Origin: Actinomycetota bacterium
GTDB taxonomy: Bacteria; Actinomycetota; Humimicrobiia; Humimicrobiales; Humimicrobiaceae
Reading direction: 5' to 3'
NCBI GenBank assembly: GCA_016927635.1
Contig: JAFGMJ010000187.1
Coordinates: 1-7,600 of the forward strand
DNA: 7,600 bases
Shown: piece after piece, positions 1 through 7,535 of the stretch
Numbering within the stretch: position 1 is the stretch's first letter
Layout: each line of letters opens with the position of its first letter
The notes under the pieces: model-generated
The model's database searches: none
The model's input: the letters and a program-made list of their open reading frames with translations, nothing else
Told to the model about the DNA's origin: nothing
Made by a program: the position numbers and the translations under genes

Positions 1-584
1 CCATCCCTACCTGCATTCCCAAATCCTGCCAGATTCAGTTTTTTAAAATTCTTTACTATAACAAAAGCCAGCAGTCCGCCCAGGCCTCCTGAAAGCGAGG
101 CCCCTGCAATTGTCAGTATAAGAGGGATTGCCGGCAGTTTAAAAAAAACAAAATTTGATAGCACGGTTCCCGCTATATTTGCAGCCATGCCTGCAAAGAA
201 ACATGAGAAAATACTGTCTACTTTTTGTTTTGAGAGCAGCAGTACCAGCTCAACAGCAATGCCAGGAAGCAGGTATGTGACTATGCTTAATATCCCGTGT
301 GTGCCAACTGTGCCAATAGCTATTACCAGTATTGCCTGGACAAGCGCTATAAGTGTTGCTGCGCCCCTTTTTGCTACAAGTCCTGCACCTATCACTATCC
401 ACATCATATAAAATCCCCCCGCAATAGCGCCCCCCGGTATAAACAGGGGGCCCGTGATTATATGCACCAGGGGCACTATGACAGGCTTTGCAGCTATTCC
501 TAGAGCAGCAACAATAGCTATTATGATCAAATCAAATACTTTAAATTTTTTAAAAAAATTTTTTGACTGTATTTTTAATTTCAT
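1..584 (-). CDS. ECF transporter substrate-binding (S) component, YkoE-like; 3' end outside window
   Basis: This open frame runs from ATG at 584 off the left edge with 194 codons and no stop. The product is very hydrophobic. After a basic N-terminus (MKLKIQSKNFFKKFK) there are about six membrane segments, near residues 16-34, 50-68, 74-94, 98-117, 124-147 and 153-177. Short Gly/Pro-rich loops include ITGPLFIPGGAIAGG (43-57), then YMMW and AKRGAATL. This layout, a GP loop and a W-containing helix followed by a K/R-x-GAA segment, resembles YkoE-type S components (ABC_cobalt/YkoE family), which bind a small molecule in the membrane and dock on a shared EcfT plus two ATPases. B. subtilis YkoE is about 200 aa, so little is probably missing. 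No good Shine-Dalgarno precedes the ATG. The gene lies 63 nt after a lipoprotein gene on the same strand, probably in one operon. The substrate cannot be told from sequence; context suggests something linked to molybdopterin cofactors (inference). Confidence 0.75.
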   Translation of the reverse strand, partial: MKLKIQSKNFFKKFKVFDLIIIAIVAALGIAAKPVIVPLVHIITGPLFIPGGAIAGGFYMMWIVIGAGLVAKRGAATLIALVQAILVIAIGTVGTHGILSIVTYLLPGIAVELVLLLSKQKVDSIFSCFFAGMAANIAGTVLSNFVFFKLPAIPLILTIAGASLSGGLGGLLAFVIVKNFKKLNLAGFGNAGRD

Positions 585-647
585 GCTGCCATTTATGGGG
601 CTTTTCAATATTTAATCATTTAAATATAAATATAATATTGATCCAGC

Positions 648-1151
648 CTAATTTAAAATTTCAATAACAGTAACATTTTTTATCCAGAATTTGCCGCTTA
701 ATGCCGGGGCGACAAGTTCGACAAGGCCATCATCAACAGTTAATTCCTTGCCGTCAAGGTAAAAGCCAAGCATTGTACTTCCGTCATTTACTGTTGAGGC
801 TTCATATTCCTGCCTGTAGCCGTCACTTGCCTCTATTGCTACCGTTTTATACTGTTTAAAACCTTTACTTTTCAGTGCCTCTGAAAGCAGTACGCCTTTC
901 CAGGTTTCTTTTATTTTTGTGCCGTCCTTTTTTTCAAGCTCAGCTTTGATTTCTTTCAGCGCAAGGCCGGCTGCATCTTTATTTGTAAACTCAACTGATT
1001 TTCCATCTGCATCTTTTATTGTTATGCTCCAGTCTGTTTCTGTGACTATAGCGTCTTTGCCCTGGCCGCTGCAGCCTGCAAAAATCATGAAACTCAGCAA
1101 AAGAACAGCTATAATTGAGCCAATGATAAACAAAATCCTTCTTTTTCTCAT
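648..1151 (-). CDS. Lipoprotein with a single sulfite-oxidase-type (molybdopterin-binding-like) domain
   Basis: The protein has 167 aa. ATG at 1151 follows AAAGGGG by 4 nt. Residues 1-26 are a lipoprotein signal (RKRR, a hydrophobic stretch, then FAG-C with Cys27 as the predicted lipidated residue), so the mature protein should be anchored outside the membrane. Residues 38-167 form one small beta-rich domain. Its landmarks recall the oxidoreductase molybdopterin-binding (SUOX) fold: W84-KGVLLSEAL (ligand-cleft helix), EASDGYRQEYE (107-117), LGFYLDGKEL and the closing LVAPALSGKFWIKNVTVIEI (145-165), which matches the family pattern of VxPG followed by a VKW/WVKN strand. The only Cys is the lipid anchor, so the Mo-ligating cysteine of true sulfite oxidases is absent. 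A binding rather than catalytic role is therefore likely. It is 73 nt downstream of a related three-domain lipoprotein and 63 nt upstream of the ECF S component. Fold assignment is by pattern, not by alignment. Confidence 0.78.
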   Translation of the reverse strand: MRKRRILFIIGSIIAVLLLSFMIFAGCSGQGKDAIVTETDWSITIKDADGKSVEFTNKDAAGLALKEIKAELEKKDGTKIKETWKGVLLSEALKSKGFKQYKTVAIEASDGYRQEYEASTVNDGSTMLGFYLDGKELTVDDGLVELVAPALSGKFWIKNVTVIEILN

Positions 1152-1224
1152 TTTTCCCCTTTCTTCTTTTATTTATATAGTTGAAATTATCCTAAAGCGA
1201 TATAATTACGGTATTTCTTTTTTA

Positions 1225-2355
1225 TTATTCAGAAATTCCCATATATATAAGATCCTTGACTTTGGTATTCTTTTCAAGCCCTTCAAAATATAAGGCAGGA
1301 AGTCCATTTTCCTGAATATATATATAGCCTTTATCCACAGAAGCTGAGTCCAGCTCTACAGTATATCCGTCAATGGCCTTGAAGAGATATTTATCCGACT
1401 GGATAATTCCGCATGCTGAAAAGACATCGCTTAATTTTATGGCATCATTGCCATCGGCTTCACTGACAGTCATTGAAGAAAAACCGCTTTGAGCAGAAAA
1501 ATATGCTGAGCCGCCATATATAAAATAAAGTATATTTTTAATCCACATTCCCTTGGGCAAATCATCAGATAAAAACATGGGGGAATTTTCGCCTGTATAT
1601 TTTATGAAGCCTTTTTTAAATATTTCTGTTTTTTCATTTTTTTCAAGGCCATCTGAAGATTTTACAACAACTGTATCGTTTGCAGGATTTTCGCTGAACT
1701 CATAAAGCAGGCCTTCAATATATGCAGCCCTGGCCTTTTCATCATAATACTGGTAATCCACAGTCTCTATTTCGCTTATCCTGGCTTCAAGTATTATTAT
1801 TCTTTTTACCTCAGCTTGCTGCATTGACATAATTATTTCAATCTTTACAAGGTTTTTGACCCAGTACATTGCAAAAACTTCAGGAATTACTGAGCGCAAC
1901 GGCTTTTCCCAATCTTCAAGGGGCTCTCCGTCTATTTCATAGGCAAGTATAATTTGCCTGGACTTAATAATATCGGGCGCAACTTCAATGGCATAACCGT
2001 CTCCGGCAATAAGCCTTAAAGAGGCTGCGTCTTTTTGAGCTATTTGCAGATATTTCTGCAGCACATCATCAAGCAGCACGCCTTTTACATTGCGTGCTTC
2101 TTTCTCTTCATCATCTTTTGGCAATGCAGTCACATCTCTAATTACTGCCTTAAGCTGCATTATCTCTTCGACAGGCACATTTATGTCCTGGCCGCTGTAA
2201 TTCAGTACAAGAACATCAGCAGCATTATTTTGCCCCGCTTCAGTATTATTCTCTGTTTCTGCCAGAGCTGTATTTGTAGCGCAGGCGGTTAAACCCGAAG
2301 AGATAATTAAACAGATTAGAAGCAAGAATACAAATGTATTTTTGAATTTTATCAT
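1225..2355 (-). CDS. Lipoprotein with three tandem sulfite-oxidase-like domains
   Basis: I choose ATG at 2355 because GAAAGGA lies 5 nt upstream and the protein then begins with a clean lipoprotein signal (MIKFKNTF, hydrophobic core, LTA-C with Cys25). The in-frame ATG at 2397 has no ribosome site and would put 14 polar residues before the signal. The product is 376 aa. After a polar linker (26-46), domain 1 (about 48-175) has VKGVLLDDVL, LIAGDGYAIEV, YEIDGEPL and VIPEVFAMYWVKNLVKIEI. Domain 2 (about 185-281) is more divergent, with AYIEGLLYEF, VVKSSDG and DLPKGMWIKNILYF. Domain 3 (about 283-374) has AIKLSDVFSACGI, FKAIDGYTVELD, LPALYFEG and KVKDLIYMGI. These repeat the signature seen in the neighbouring 167-aa lipoprotein. 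Cys315 lies in a helix and does not match the Mo-ligand position. It is the first gene after a cofactor riboswitch and probably a surface binding protein; the ligand is unknown. Confidence 0.78.
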   Translation of the reverse strand: MIKFKNTFVFLLLICLIISSGLTACATNTALAETENNTEAGQNNAADVLVLNYSGQDINVPVEEIMQLKAVIRDVTALPKDDEEKEARNVKGVLLDDVLQKYLQIAQKDAASLRLIAGDGYAIEVAPDIIKSRQIILAYEIDGEPLEDWEKPLRSVIPEVFAMYWVKNLVKIEIIMSMQQAEVKRIIILEARISEIETVDYQYYDEKARAAYIEGLLYEFSENPANDTVVVKSSDGLEKNEKTEIFKKGFIKYTGENSPMFLSDDLPKGMWIKNILYFIYGGSAYFSAQSGFSSMTVSEADGNDAIKLSDVFSACGIIQSDKYLFKAIDGYTVELDSASVDKGYIYIQENGLPALYFEGLEKNTKVKDLIYMGISE

Positions 2356-2483: not shown

Positions 2484-2517
2484 AAAAACAAAAGCTCCTT
2501 TCCAGCGAAAAGGAGCT
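2484..2517 (-). terminator. Intrinsic terminator, expression platform of the riboswitch
   Basis: On the minus strand AGCTCCTTT (2517-2509), a 7-nt loop and AAAGGAGCT (2501-2493) form a perfect 9-bp stem, followed directly by UUUGUUUUU (2492-2484). No T-run follows on the plus strand, so it acts in one direction. It sits about 40 nt after the aptamer core and 128 nt before the first lipoprotein start. Its 5' arm can alternatively pair with GGAAAGGAG of the aptamer (2564-2556), giving 9 bp with one G-U. This is the expected design of a transcriptional OFF switch: ligand holds the aptamer strand, the terminator arm is free, and the hairpin forms. Confidence 0.92.
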
Positions 2518-2565
2518 AAAAAACACATGCAGGCATAAACAATTATGCCCTTTTACTCCTTTCCA
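2495..2565 (-). repeat. 10-nt direct repeat TGGAAAGGAG shared by aptamer and terminator
   Basis: The minus strand carries TGGAAAGGAG at 2565-2556, inside the aptamer core, and again at 2504-2495, in the loop and 3' arm of the terminator. Both copies are complementary to the same terminator 5' arm (CTCCTTT at 2515-2509), so they compete for it. This is a functional duplication typical of terminator/antiterminator switches rather than a mobile repeat. Confidence 0.85.
2532..2549 (-). other. Small hairpin linking aptamer and terminator
   Basis: GGCATAA (2549-2543), loop TTGT and TTATGCC (2538-2532) form a 7-bp hairpin in the RNA. The same GGCATAA could instead pair with TTATGCC at 2580-2574, which is the 3' arm of the aptamer P4-like stem. 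The hairpin may thus be either a neutral spacer or part of the switch by opening P4 in the unbound state. The pairing is seen directly; the role is inferred. Confidence 0.6.
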
Positions 2566-2656
2566 ATACGGGAGGCATAACCATTACTAGTTATACCCTA
2601 TCGGTCTATCATCCCATAAGCAATTATACTTATTAGGGCTAAAAGGCTCGGAGAAT
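2550..2656 (-). promoter_or_regulatory. Molybdenum/tungsten-cofactor class riboswitch aptamer (Moco RNA motif)
   Basis: The RNA reads 5' CTCCGAGCC (2653-2645), then a CCCTA/TAGGG helix (2638-2634 with 2600-2596) enclosing ATAAG/CTTAT (2633-2629 with 2620-2616). Next is a stem-loop GGTATAAC/GTTATGCC (2597-2590 with 2581-2574) with loop TAGTAATG, then CCTCCCGTATTGGAAAGGAG (2575-2556). The closing helix is CTCC (2653-2650) with GGAG (2559-2556). From memory, the leader of E. coli moaA, the type member of the Moco RNA motif (Rfam RF01055), ends in the same arrangement: a stem closing in GCC, then TCCCGTAT, TGGAAAGG and a short P1 strand. Only one stem is evident inside the second helix; tungsten-cofactor variants are reported to lack P3, so Mo versus W is not decided. 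A downstream terminator that competes with the core indicates ligand-induced OFF control. The regulated genes are two SUOX-fold lipoproteins and an ECF S component, consistent with a cofactor theme. Confidence 0.82.
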
Positions 2657-2738
2657 ATGCAAATTTATATTCTTTTTATATTTAATTTTATCTAAAAGAT
2701 TCTAAATAAATTGCAGATAAAATTCAACTCTTTTATCT
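2657..2738 (-). promoter_or_regulatory. AT-rich region expected to hold the riboswitch promoter
   Basis: Between the folP stop and the aptamer are about 80 nt that are almost pure A/T. On the minus strand two TATAAA boxes occur (2680-2675 and 2669-2664), either of which could be a -10, but no convincing -35 hexamer is at 16-18 nt. GATAAAA/TTTTATC (2737-2731 with 2722-2716) can form a weak A/T hairpin without a U-tract, so I see no folP terminator. Transcripts from folP may therefore also run into the riboswitch. Confidence 0.3.
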
Positions 2739-4710: not shown

Positions 4711-6738
4711 TTATCTGGCTGTTTTCCCGGCTGCATTTTCTCCTGTAATTTCACTGCGGTTCAATTTTTTGCCTGAAGAAACTTTCCTGGCTGCATCCTT
4801 TTTATCAGTATTTTTTACCGCCCCTTTTTTATATTCTCCCCTGCCGTTGCTGCCGCTTTTGACGCTGCTTTTTTTATTTTTTGCGCCTGTCTGGCTCTCT
4901 TCATCATGTTTGGAAGAATCTTTTATTTTTTTCTGGCTCTTTACACTAAAGAGCATATTCATAACCTGCTCCCTTGAAAGCGTTTCCTTCTCAATAAGGG
5001 TATTGGCAAGCATTTTAAGCGCATCCCTGTTTTCAAGTAATATGCTGCGCGCTTTTTCATAACATTCCAAAATTATACTGTTTACCTCTTTATCTATTTC
5101 AGAGGCGACTTCTTCACTGTAATGTGGCCTTGATATTATTTCCTTGCCAAGAAATACTTCTTCATCATCTGTCTTATAGGTAACAGGACCGATTTTTTTG
5201 CTCATGCCAAATTCTGTGACCATTTTCCTGGTCAACTTAGTTGCCCTGTCAAGGTCGTTCTGGGCGCCGCTTGTTATGTCTTCAAAGTTCATCTCCTCGC
5301 TTACCCTGCCGCCGAGAAGCTGTGTGATATTATCCAGTAGCTCTTTCCTGGATTTTAAATACTTATCCTCCTCCGGAAGTGTTATCACATAACCAAGAGC
5401 CCTGCCCCTGGAAATTATGGATATTTTGTGTATTGGGTCAGTATTGGGCAGTATATGGGAAAGTAGGGCATGACCGGCTTCATGAAAAGCGATTATCCTT
5501 TTTTCGTCTTCGGATATGACCCTTGTCTTTTTCTCGGGACCGGCAATAACCCTTTCTATTGCATCCTCTATCTCGAACATGCTTATTTTCTTCTTATTGT
5601 GTCGCGCCGCAAGAAGCGATGCTTCATTGAATATATTAGCAAGGTCAGCCCCTGTAAATCCCGGGGTTTCCTTTGCTATTGTCTTTAAGTTTATGTCTTT
5701 ATCAAGAGGTTTTCCACGCGCATGTATCTCAAGTATCTGTTCCCTTCCGATAAGGTCAGGCCTGTCTACACCTATCTGCCTGTCAAAACGCCCTGGACGC
5801 AAAAGAGCCGGGTCCAGTATATCCGGCCTGTTGGTTGCAGCAATTAAAATCACAGTGCTGTCCTGGTCAAAACCGTCCATCTCAACTAGAAGCTGGTTTA
5901 AGGTCTGCTCACGCTCATCATGTCCTCCGCCAAGGCCCGCTCCCCTGTGCCTTCCGACTGCGTCTATCTCATCCATAAATATTATTGAAGGCTGCGATGC
6001 CTTTGCCTGCGCAAACAAATCCCTGATACGTGATGCTCCCACGCCCACAAACATCTCCACAAATTCAGAGCCTGAAATAGAATAGAAAGGCACTCCGGCT
6101 TCTCCTGCAACTGCTCTTGCAAGCAATGTCTTTCCGGTTCCCGGAGGACCATATAGCAGAACTCCTTTGGGGATTTTTGCCCCCATTGCCTTAAATTTTG
6201 AAGGATTTTCAAGAAATTCTTCAATCTCCCTTAGTTCCTCTATTGCCTCGTCTGTGCCGGCAACATCTTTAAAAGTCACCCTGGTTTTACCCTTGTTTGC
6301 AATACGGGCTCTGCTCTTGCCAAACTGCAGCACTTTTGACCCGCCGCCCTGGAGCTGGTTCATCATGAAAAATATAAGACCGAAAATGAGCAGGAAAGGC
6401 AGCGCACTTACCAGTATCTGTATCCATATTGACTGCTTCTGGTTATCAACCAGAAAAGGTATATTTTTTTCAAGAAGCAATGCTGTCACATCATAGTTCT
6501 CAAGATAAGCCACTTTAAAAGACGTGCCGTCTGCAAGTTTTCCCTCTATCAGTTTATCATCCCCTTTAATGCTTAAAGGTTCAGCTGTGTTTATCTGGCC
6601 CTCATTGACCTTTGCAACAAATTCATTTAAGTTAAGCTCTTTTACTTCAGGCGCCATAAACAGCGGATTCCTGAAAATAAGAAATATAACTACTATTAAC
6701 AGGATAAGAAGAGCTATATTTTTAAAACTCCTTTTCAA
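4711..6738 (-). CDS. ftsH: ATP-dependent zinc metalloprotease FtsH
   Basis: FtsH is a membrane-anchored hexameric AAA+ protease that removes damaged membrane proteins and short-lived regulators. The start is an unusual TTG at 6738 with AAAAGGAG 10 nt upstream; no in-frame ATG or GTG is nearby. The protein has 675 aa. The first membrane helix is at about 7-23, the extracytoplasmic domain at 30-103 and the second helix at 104-126. The AAA+ module has Walker A GPPGTGKT (197-204), pore loop MFVGVG (229-234), Walker B IIFMDEID (252-259) and a second region of homology [21 protein letters not shown] (301-321) with arginine fingers 314 and 317. The protease has HEAGH (419-423) and the third zinc ligand Asp495 in NDLDRAT. 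All catalytic residues are intact. The last 75 residues or so (603-675) are a Lys/Ser-rich, low-complexity basic tail. It is preceded by a 266-nt gap with candidate promoters and followed by a terminator, so it is probably its own transcript. Confidence 0.98.
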
Positions 6739-6775
6739 ATCAAAAACACTCCTTTTATACTAAAATTTCATTGAT

Positions 6776-6804
6776 ATTATATATTATTTTATTTAAATAA
6801 GAAA
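6776..6804 (-). promoter_or_regulatory. Candidate proximal ftsH promoter
   Basis: A perfect -10 TATAAT lies on the minus strand at 6781-6776, about 38 nt before the TTG start. The position 17 nt upstream (6804-6799, TTTCTT) is a poor -35. The site would give a leader of about 30 nt containing only the AAAAGGAG ribosome site. The surrounding DNA is very A/T-rich, so chance matches are likely. Confidence 0.45.
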
Positions 6805-6818
6805 ATGATAGAGCATAT

Positions 6819-6847
6819 GTAAAAACATCTTTTTACAAAGTTTTTAC
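6819..6847. repeat. Clustered GTAAAAAC / GTTTTTAC repeats upstream of ftsH
   Basis: GTAAAAAC (6819-6826) and GTTTTTAC (6840-6847) are perfect 8-nt inverted arms, and a further TTTTTAC lies between them at 6830-6836. The two TTTTTAC copies are 11 nt apart, one helical turn. The set sits between the two candidate ftsH promoters, about 15 nt upstream of the proximal -35 position. It could be a regulator-binding site or an A/T-rich hairpin; nothing identifies a regulator. Confidence 0.45.
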
Positions 6848-6905
6848 AATTGCGCTTTTTTAACCAGTTTACCTTAAATATCAGCATACCTGTTTATCTT
6901 AAAGC

Positions 6906-6933
6906 AATATAATCTGCTTTGACTGCATCTCAA
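6906..6933 (-). promoter_or_regulatory. Candidate distal ftsH promoter
   Basis: On the minus strand TTGAGA (6933-6928) and TATATT (6911-6906) are separated by 16 nt, a reasonable sigma-70/SigA match (4/6 and 5/6). Transcription from here would give a leader of roughly 160 nt before ftsH that includes the GTAAAAAC repeats. No experimental support is available from sequence. Confidence 0.4.
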
Positions 6934-6986
6934 TGGTAAAACTTTCAGGCTAATTTCAAAGCGGGCTTTAAAAATGGTTTGTTTAA

Positions 6987-7016
6987 AAAGCTTTTAAAGA
7001 AGATTTATTTATCTTC
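6987..7016 (-). terminator. Weak terminator-like hairpin at the hpt stop
   Basis: GAAGAT (7016-7011), loop AAATAA and ATCTTC (7004-6999) form a 6-bp hairpin whose loop holds the hpt stop codon. It is followed by UUU, AAAA and then an AAAAGCTTTT palindrome. The stem is weak and the U-tract is broken, so termination here would be inefficient at best. Confidence 0.3.
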
Positions 7017-7535
7017 AATATAGCCGATGTAAGGCAGATTCCTGTATTTTTCCCCTGCATCCAGTCCATATCCAATGACATATTTGTTGGGTATATCAAA
7101 TCCTTTGTATTTGACAGTATTTTCAGCTTTTCTTGGAACATTTTTATCGAGGAGCGCACAGACCTCTATGCTTTTCGGATTTCTTGCCTCAAGATTTTTT
7201 ATAAGGTAATTTAGTGTCCTTCCGCTGTCTATTATATCTTCGATTATTATTACATCTTTGCCTTCAATATTTGTATCAAGGTCTTTGGTTATCCTTACTA
7301 TACCGGAGCTGACTTTTGCATTTCCATAACTTGAAACAGCCATAAAATCAAAAAACACAGGAATCTTTATAAACCTGCATATATCAGCTACAAATATAAA
7401 TGAGCCTTTAAGTATTGCAATAAGCACAGGTTTTTTATCTTTATAATCCTGTGTTATCTGCTCTCCAAGCTTGCTGACTTTATTTTTGAGCGTTTTTTCG
7501 TCAATTAAAACTTTTATGTCAATTTGTTCTGGCAT
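7005..7535 (-). CDS. hpt: Hypoxanthine phosphoribosyltransferase
   Basis: Hpt salvages hypoxanthine (and usually guanine) to IMP/GMP using PRPP, in the cytoplasm. The protein has 176 aa, a normal length. Motifs are AILKGSFIFVADI (40-52) with the LKGS PPi loop, the flexible loop SSYGNAKVSSG (68-78), the PRPP-binding signature VIIIEDIIDSGRTL (95-108), ALLDKNVPRK (127-136), and the purine-binding/C-terminal FDIPNKYVIGYGLDAGEKYRNLPYI (146-170, with acid and aromatic residues as in the family). The ATG at 7535 is the only sensible start, but no Shine-Dalgarno precedes it: the 35 nt upstream are almost only A and T. In many Gram-positive bacteria hpt sits between tilS and ftsH; ftsH is indeed next here, after 266 nt. 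The upstream neighbour is outside the window. Confidence 0.96.
   Translation of the reverse strand: MPEQIDIKVLIDEKTLKNKVSKLGEQITQDYKDKKPVLIAILKGSFIFVADICRFIKIPVFFDFMAVSSYGNAKVSSGIVRITKDLDTNIEGKDVIIIEDIIDSGRTLNYLIKNLEARNPKSIEVCALLDKNVPRKAENTVKYKGFDIPNKYVIGYGLDAGEKYRNLPYIGYIEDK

Follow-up and report, generated by a model that had tools for sequence, protein, structure and literature searches.

The window analysed here is the entire 7,600-base contig C259 (JAFGMJ010000187.1) of a Humimicrobiaceae metagenome-assembled genome (G000; 1.61 Mb, 280 contigs, 77% complete), and the subject of this work is a riboswitch-led operon at one of its ends, which we read as a probable import system by which this uncultured anaerobe would take up a molybdopterin-type cofactor rather than synthesise it. 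Along the minus strand, hpt, ftsH, folE and folP are followed by the riboswitch and then by the genes for two predicted lipoproteins, LipA and LipB, and for a YkoE-like S component of an energy-coupling factor (ECF) transporter (Table 1). All three genes lie on a single strand, with 73 nt between lipA and lipB and 39 nt between lipB and the S gene. The four leading genes, of which folE and ftsH were identified from reading the translations alone, are all positioned ahead of the riboswitch and not behind it. The initial annotation of this DNA had described two lipoproteins without the Mo-binding cysteine and a YkoE-like S component behind a cofactor riboswitch, and this is confirmed by matches to RF01055, PF00174 and PF09819 and by a survey of cysteines. 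Position 3 is not the end of the S gene, which continues past the contig end.

Table 1 Features of the operon in the window. Moco and Tuco denote the molybdenum and tungsten cofactors.
Feature	Positions	Strand	Basis or remark
Moco/Tuco riboswitch aptamer, P3-lacking type	2540..2665	minus	RF01055 over the whole model; aligned without the P3 positions
Predicted intrinsic terminator	2484..2517	minus	Stem 2517-2493, then T run
LipA, predicted lipoprotein	1225..2355	minus	SUOX/PruR-fold N-terminal domain and a further C-terminal part
LipB, second predicted lipoprotein	648..1151	minus	One SUOX/PruR-like domain
YkoE-like ECF S component	3..608	minus	PF09819; cut by the contig end; likely ATG about 584

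Leader, transporter and lipoproteins of the operon

The aptamer matches the whole RF01055 model with 63.5 bits (gathering threshold 36; E 7.6e-14). The alignment shows no hairpin P3, an absence that we claim for two aptamers only, this one and the second riboswitch of locus L053, for which it is seen in the printed alignment. Behind the aptamer, 11 pairs and a T run form the predicted terminator (-14.6 kcal/mol, z -3.89), and in an alternative hairpin the 3' strand of the aptamer (2564-2556) would pair with the 5' arm of the terminator (-23.3 kcal/mol, z -3.99). This arrangement is consistent with a typical OFF switch with a predicted ligand effect, and agrees with the cofactor-sensing OFF switch proposed initially. 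P3-lacking RNAs such as this full match were linked to tungsten-cofactor metabolism by Regulski et al. (PMC2408646). The targets of the Moco riboswitch named in passages of that paper are biosynthesis, Mo/W transport and Mo/W enzymes (PMC2408646), whereas here the leader would control an importer. Two Syntrophomonas wolfei RNAs that the same authors report ahead of genes for 'putative' sulphite oxidases (PMC2408646) may represent the same kind of system.

The S component matches PF09819 above the cut-off (E 1e-12) and has a protein-database version of 195 aa; among its 799 homologues, one from 'Candidatus Humimicrobiaceae bacterium' is 70% identical. The first 34 bases (gene strand) of contig C38 of the same genome repeat the window end with 1 mismatch, and reading into C38 brings the S gene to a stop codon 6 codons past the window, overlapping the start codon of the next gene. 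C38 continues with genes for a phosphodiesterase (PF01663), a third SUOX-like protein (SUOX3), EcfA, EcfA', EcfT (PF02361), MobB (PF03205), an APH-type kinase, FolB/FolK and MoeA. The join of C259 to C38 is supported because G032, a genome of the same family, carries LipA, LipB, the S component, phosphodiesterase, SUOX3, EcfA, EcfA', EcfT, MobB and kinase on one contig; in G033, G005 and G030 the riboswitch likewise precedes lipA. The ecfA, ecfA' and ecfT genes that had been expected beyond position 1 are thus found across the 34-nt overlap, and the S component, two ATPases and EcfT share one operon in G032 and in many of the loci described below.

LipA, whose ATG at position 2355 is preceded by AAAGGA, and LipB both match PF00174 (E 9.5e-10 and 1.9e-9), as do 30 of 30 aligned LipA homologues; SUOX3 falls below the cut-off of this family. 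A lipobox is present in both window lipoproteins, and a crude lipobox pattern fits 38 of 64 LipA and 17 of 31 LipB sequences, whose open reading frame starts are uncertain. The lipobox cysteine is the sole conserved one, no other column exceeding 20% cysteine in LipA (38 sequences) or LipB (17), and a role as sulfite oxidase enzymes was rejected for both proteins because they lack a Mo-ligating cysteine. The LipA structure model (pLDDT 88) has PruR pterin-binding proteins (7KOM, 7KOS, 7KP2, 7RKB) as its first fold match, with sulfite oxidases nearly equal, and the LipB profile matches SorA (7.6e-8) and PruR (7kos/7kom, 5.5e-4). PruR is likewise a secreted protein with a SUOX-type fold and no Mo-binding cysteine, whereas LipA, LipB and SUOX3 are predicted to be lipoproteins or membrane-anchored and are encoded in the importer operon. 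The tyrosine of a DGY motif, kept in 37/38 LipA, 15/17 LipB and 68/70 SUOX3 sequences, aligns with that of the NDY motif of PruR and equals its Tyr104 only by inferred numbering. A tryptophan near the C-terminal end (34/38 LipA, 69/70 SUOX3; under the 85% listing threshold in LipB) fits PruR Trp160 by position only. The SUOX3 homologue search returned 49 proteins, query included, and 45 of the 70 SUOX3 proteins have a cysteine beside the conserved tryptophan (W-C-K). A LipB-query scan of the genome contigs gave no match. Matches on G006:C18 and G007:C7 were dropped as a different PF00174 gene beside other genes, and one in G025, whose short contig holds no other member of the set, was not counted as a cluster.

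The predicted fold and alignment of the phosphodiesterase place it in the NPP/alkaline phosphatase superfamily with metal-site residues present, and its invariant Asp and His columns presumably correspond to the NPP metal site; phosphonoacetate hydrolase scores as high as NPP in the fold matches. It differs from the NPP family in having a membrane anchor and a SUOX-like region at its N-terminal end, and in its proposed substrate, molybdopterin guanine or cytosine dinucleotide. The N-terminal part obtained no separate structural match in a match list occupied by a single domain. The P-loop domain of MobB matches PF03205 over the Pfam cut-off (E 5.2e-19) and lies under the NCBIfam equivalog cut-offs.

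Recurrence of the gene set and cofactor supply

The operon is real and widely conserved. An alignment of 15 S components led to 74 loci in named genomes, with titles mostly from Clostridia, Bacillota, Tissierellia and Halanaerobia. Neighbours were labelled by iterated own-built profiles, in which ABC ATPase labels may include unrelated ATPases, and were counted anywhere in the fetched stretch with contig ends uncorrected. Any SUOX-like protein occurs at 72 of the 74 loci, SUOX3 at 65 (as a rule directly ahead of the ecfA genes), EcfT at 64, the MobB family at 59 (including a separate ordinary MobB of L059), LipA or LipB at 57, the phosphodiesterase at 56, the kinase at 45 and MoeA at 5. A further lipoprotein cluster, often encoded by the first gene, is present at 33 loci, and the two members checked are FMN_bind proteins. 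SUOX-like proteins can be far larger elsewhere: three of 1463, 1212 and 481 aa adjoin the S gene at L093, and those of about 1300 aa within the operon run at L074, L075, L084 and L085 are perhaps multi-domain surface capture proteins. L049 and its relatives encode a 249-aa protein weakly like TiaS, below the cut-off.

A riboswitch model built from eight members places a leader upstream of the S gene at 50/74 loci, or 43/74 under a stricter rule, with 11 more loci cut at contig ends. The larger count includes weak matches at L089 (E 0.024) and L110 (E 0.3) and the riboswitch of L078, which helped build the model, as did that of L021 (the same contig as L046). At L049, L052, L057, L059 and L109 an upstream match is present and fails the rule of no intervening opposite-strand reading frame of at least 130 aa. 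Rfam RF01055 agreed at 16 of 16 chosen loci. On whether the gene set occurs without Moco-type leaders, a point raised initially, an Rfam scan of eight loci chosen for having no match, of which one is cut at a contig end, detected no Moco leader within the sequence retrieved.

We then compared the gene set with the capacity for cofactor synthesis in 49 genomes with an S component. These represent a selection of 50 of the 74 loci, minus L052; L046 and L050, which match the family contigs G005:C143 and G032:C198 in length, were outside the selection. RF01055 is present in 47 of these genomes and MoaC is missing from 24, which bears out the expected co-occurrence of the set with Moco riboswitches and, often, with the absence of moaC. 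Mo/W-pterin enzymes are nonetheless encoded in all 24 MoaC-lacking genomes, with PF00384 in 19 and AOR in 22. Incompleteness of metagenome-assembled genomes could explain single cases, but not the complete chromosome CP118523.1, which lacks MoaC and carries an AOR-like gene as well as a formate dehydrogenase gene that contains an in-frame TGA and has FdhD and MobA as neighbours. Anaerosalibacter (L059), also without MoaC, has a formate dehydrogenase-type gene after ecfT.

Within the family, 35 genomes include 19 with MoaC, the same 19 with the MoaA C-terminal domain, 20 with PF00384 enzymes and 19 with the riboswitch. MoaE (PF02391) was found in none of the 35, though 19 have MoaA and MoaC, and these moaAC-bearing genomes may use another molybdopterin synthase. 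By contig reading, the importer or part of it is present in six genomes (G000, G002, G005, G030, G032 and G033), and in G005 alone it is accompanied by moaAC. Every one of the 19 genomes with the riboswitch encodes moaAC or the importer; the riboswitch is missing from all 11 genomes that have neither and from five that have one of the two, and riboswitch and moaC share a contig in 9 of the 15 genomes having both. Since the riboswitch tracks moaAC or the importer, one and the same switch seems to control both ways of supplying the cofactor. Taken directly, the importer is weakly associated with an absence of moaAC (Fisher 0.07 across the 35 genomes; 0.03 in the 20 PF00384 genomes), and in G011 and G020 PF00384 occurs without importer or moaAC. 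A remnant of the operon at 7815-8720 of L038 (G006:C27), in a genome with moaAC, retains a Moco riboswitch, a piece of the kinase and an S gene that is interrupted; it was not counted.

A proposed salvage importer and its alternatives

We consider it likely that the operon encodes a riboswitch-controlled salvage importer for molybdopterin, or for its Mo/W or nucleotide forms, with the ligand being predicted. Import is indicated by the ECF genes, and the substrate by the riboswitch, MobB, MoeA, the pterin-type folds and the missing moaC. The scavenging of a molybdopterin-type cofactor by surface capture and ECF import, as put forward in the initial annotation, is therefore supported by the ECF genes, the co-occurrence with riboswitches, the moaC gaps and the PruR-like fold. 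A substrate of the molybdopterin type would be new to ECF transporters, and this prediction is well supported. The queuosine transporter QrtT, as described in part of one report, is similarly a riboswitch-controlled ECF salvage system, but for another class of substrate (PMC11477304).

In the proposed mechanism, released Mo or W dinucleotide cofactor would be cleaved extracellularly by the anchored phosphodiesterase, and LipA and LipB would capture the pterin on the outer face of the cell. Together with SUOX3 they would pass molybdopterin, possibly dephosphorylated, to the S component, which would carry it inward, powered by the EcfA, EcfA' and EcfT likely encoded on the overlapping contig; the flavin-binding lipoprotein might hold the pterin or its dithiolene reduced. 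Inside the cell, the phosphate would be put back by the APH-type kinase, Mo or W would be supplied by MoeA, and the nucleotide would be attached by MobB (with MobA). Once the cell contains enough Moco or Tuco, the riboswitch would terminate transcription. Extracellular loss of the nucleotide and renewed phosphorylation in the cell are suggested by the presence of a phosphodiesterase and a kinase, and by analogy with thiamine salvage. The proximity of moeA to the operon favours metal-free molybdopterin as the imported species. We lean slightly towards a still broader possibility, in which these steps form a complete salvage line replacing synthesis: anaerobes without moaA and moaC would live on their neighbours' cofactor, trimmed by the phosphodiesterase, caught by PruR-like lipoproteins, protected by the flavin lipoprotein, imported by an ECF transporter of new specificity, rebuilt by the kinase, MoeA, MobA and MobB, and able when finished to switch off its own supply.

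It is also conceivable, though rather unlikely, that another pterin or an earlier precursor is imported, such as cyclic pyranopterin monophosphate (cPMP) or a compound of the neopterin or monapterin type. PruR, the first fold match, binds simple pterins, reportedly with a truncated site, folate-pathway genes flank the set in its own genome, and cPMP would remedy a lack of moaA and moaC equally well. However, the MobB family, MoeA and the riboswitch indicate steps downstream of cPMP, and MoaE, which the usual use of cPMP requires, is not found in any of the 35 family genomes, although these include the moaAC-bearing ones. The phosphodiesterase, judged by its superfamily, would also have no obvious use for cPMP.

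Import of molybdate or tungstate by the ECF transporter appears very improbable. Mo/W transporters are among the known targets of Moco riboswitches (passages of PMC2408646), and at L049, L062, L064 and L070 the retrieved sequence holds a FecCD-type ABC transporter gene cluster (one member Pfam-checked) on the same strand. PF09819, however, includes YkoE, which carries the organic substrate thiamine, and anion transport would leave the pterin-type folds, the phosphodiesterase, the kinase and the Mo/W enzymes of moaC-less genomes without explanation. We give equally little credence to the lipoproteins acting in redox reactions or metal handling, or as a signalling branch like that of PruR, with an unrelated ECF transporter beside them. 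In favour of such roles are the flavin-binding lipoprotein of the set and the function of PruR itself in c-di-GMP signalling, together with a related gene near the set on six examined contigs, on either strand, whose L017 member is by eye of PAS/GGDEF/HD type; the recurrence of SUOX-like proteins with EcfT, and of SUOX3 directly before the ecfA genes, argues against this reading.

The S component does belong to the family of a carrier of unrelated substrate, with PF09819 matched by all 15 of the S components aligned, database names of the type thiamin/hydroxymethylpyrimidine permease, and, as in the group I thiamine transporter YkoEDC (YkoE, 5EDL), dedicated ecfA, ecfA' and ecfT genes alongside. 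Four thiamine contacts of YkoE are replaced, however, Trp49, Glu77, Gln95 and Tyr46 aligning with Tyr, Val, an invariant Pro and Gly (phmmer; a weak pairwise alignment, E 0.15, with the numbering shifted by 2 as deduced from the Trp, and with Asp131 outside the mapped positions). Transport of thiamine or hydroxymethylpyrimidine was rejected as scarcely credible, given these mismatches, the absence of thiamine pyrophosphate riboswitches from 34 scanned sources, and an operon that instead combines a Moco leader with pterin-type lipoproteins, phosphodiesterase, MobB and kinase.

Precedents, implications and further riboswitches

To our knowledge, Moco has been held to be too unstable for sharing, so that each cell makes its own. 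Caenorhabditis elegans is an exception, taking Moco from its bacterial food by mechanisms described as unknown in part of one report (PMC9793310). In the open-access papers of PubMed Central, we found no such importer save for one phrase: the genome report of Desulfitobacterium hafniense PCE-S mentions a 'molybdopterin import cluster' without detail (PMC4511579), which may concern a relative of the present operon. The table of riboswitch-regulated functions of Sun et al. contains no category for Moco uptake (PMC3766115), and some type 11 secretion outer-membrane proteins have been suggested, in a passage of another study, to take up cobalamin or molybdopterin (PMC12282271). If the proposed function is correct, the operon would provide a first molecular route for uptake of the cofactor, explain the Mo/W enzymes of moaC-less genomes and add a substrate to those of ECF transporters, and cofactor sharing in anaerobic communities would become testable. 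Proteins that bind and move the cofactor could also aid research on Moco deficiency.

Two observations concern Moco riboswitches beyond the operon. On CP118523.1 (about 3.66 Mb), a second one (L119:5619-5739) precedes a gene for L-glutamate gamma-semialdehyde dehydrogenase (5849-7480), an enzyme that is not known to depend on Moco, for which isozyme control is possible. The genome of L093 (G080, Syntrophomonas sp. UBA4922) contains 14 Moco riboswitches.
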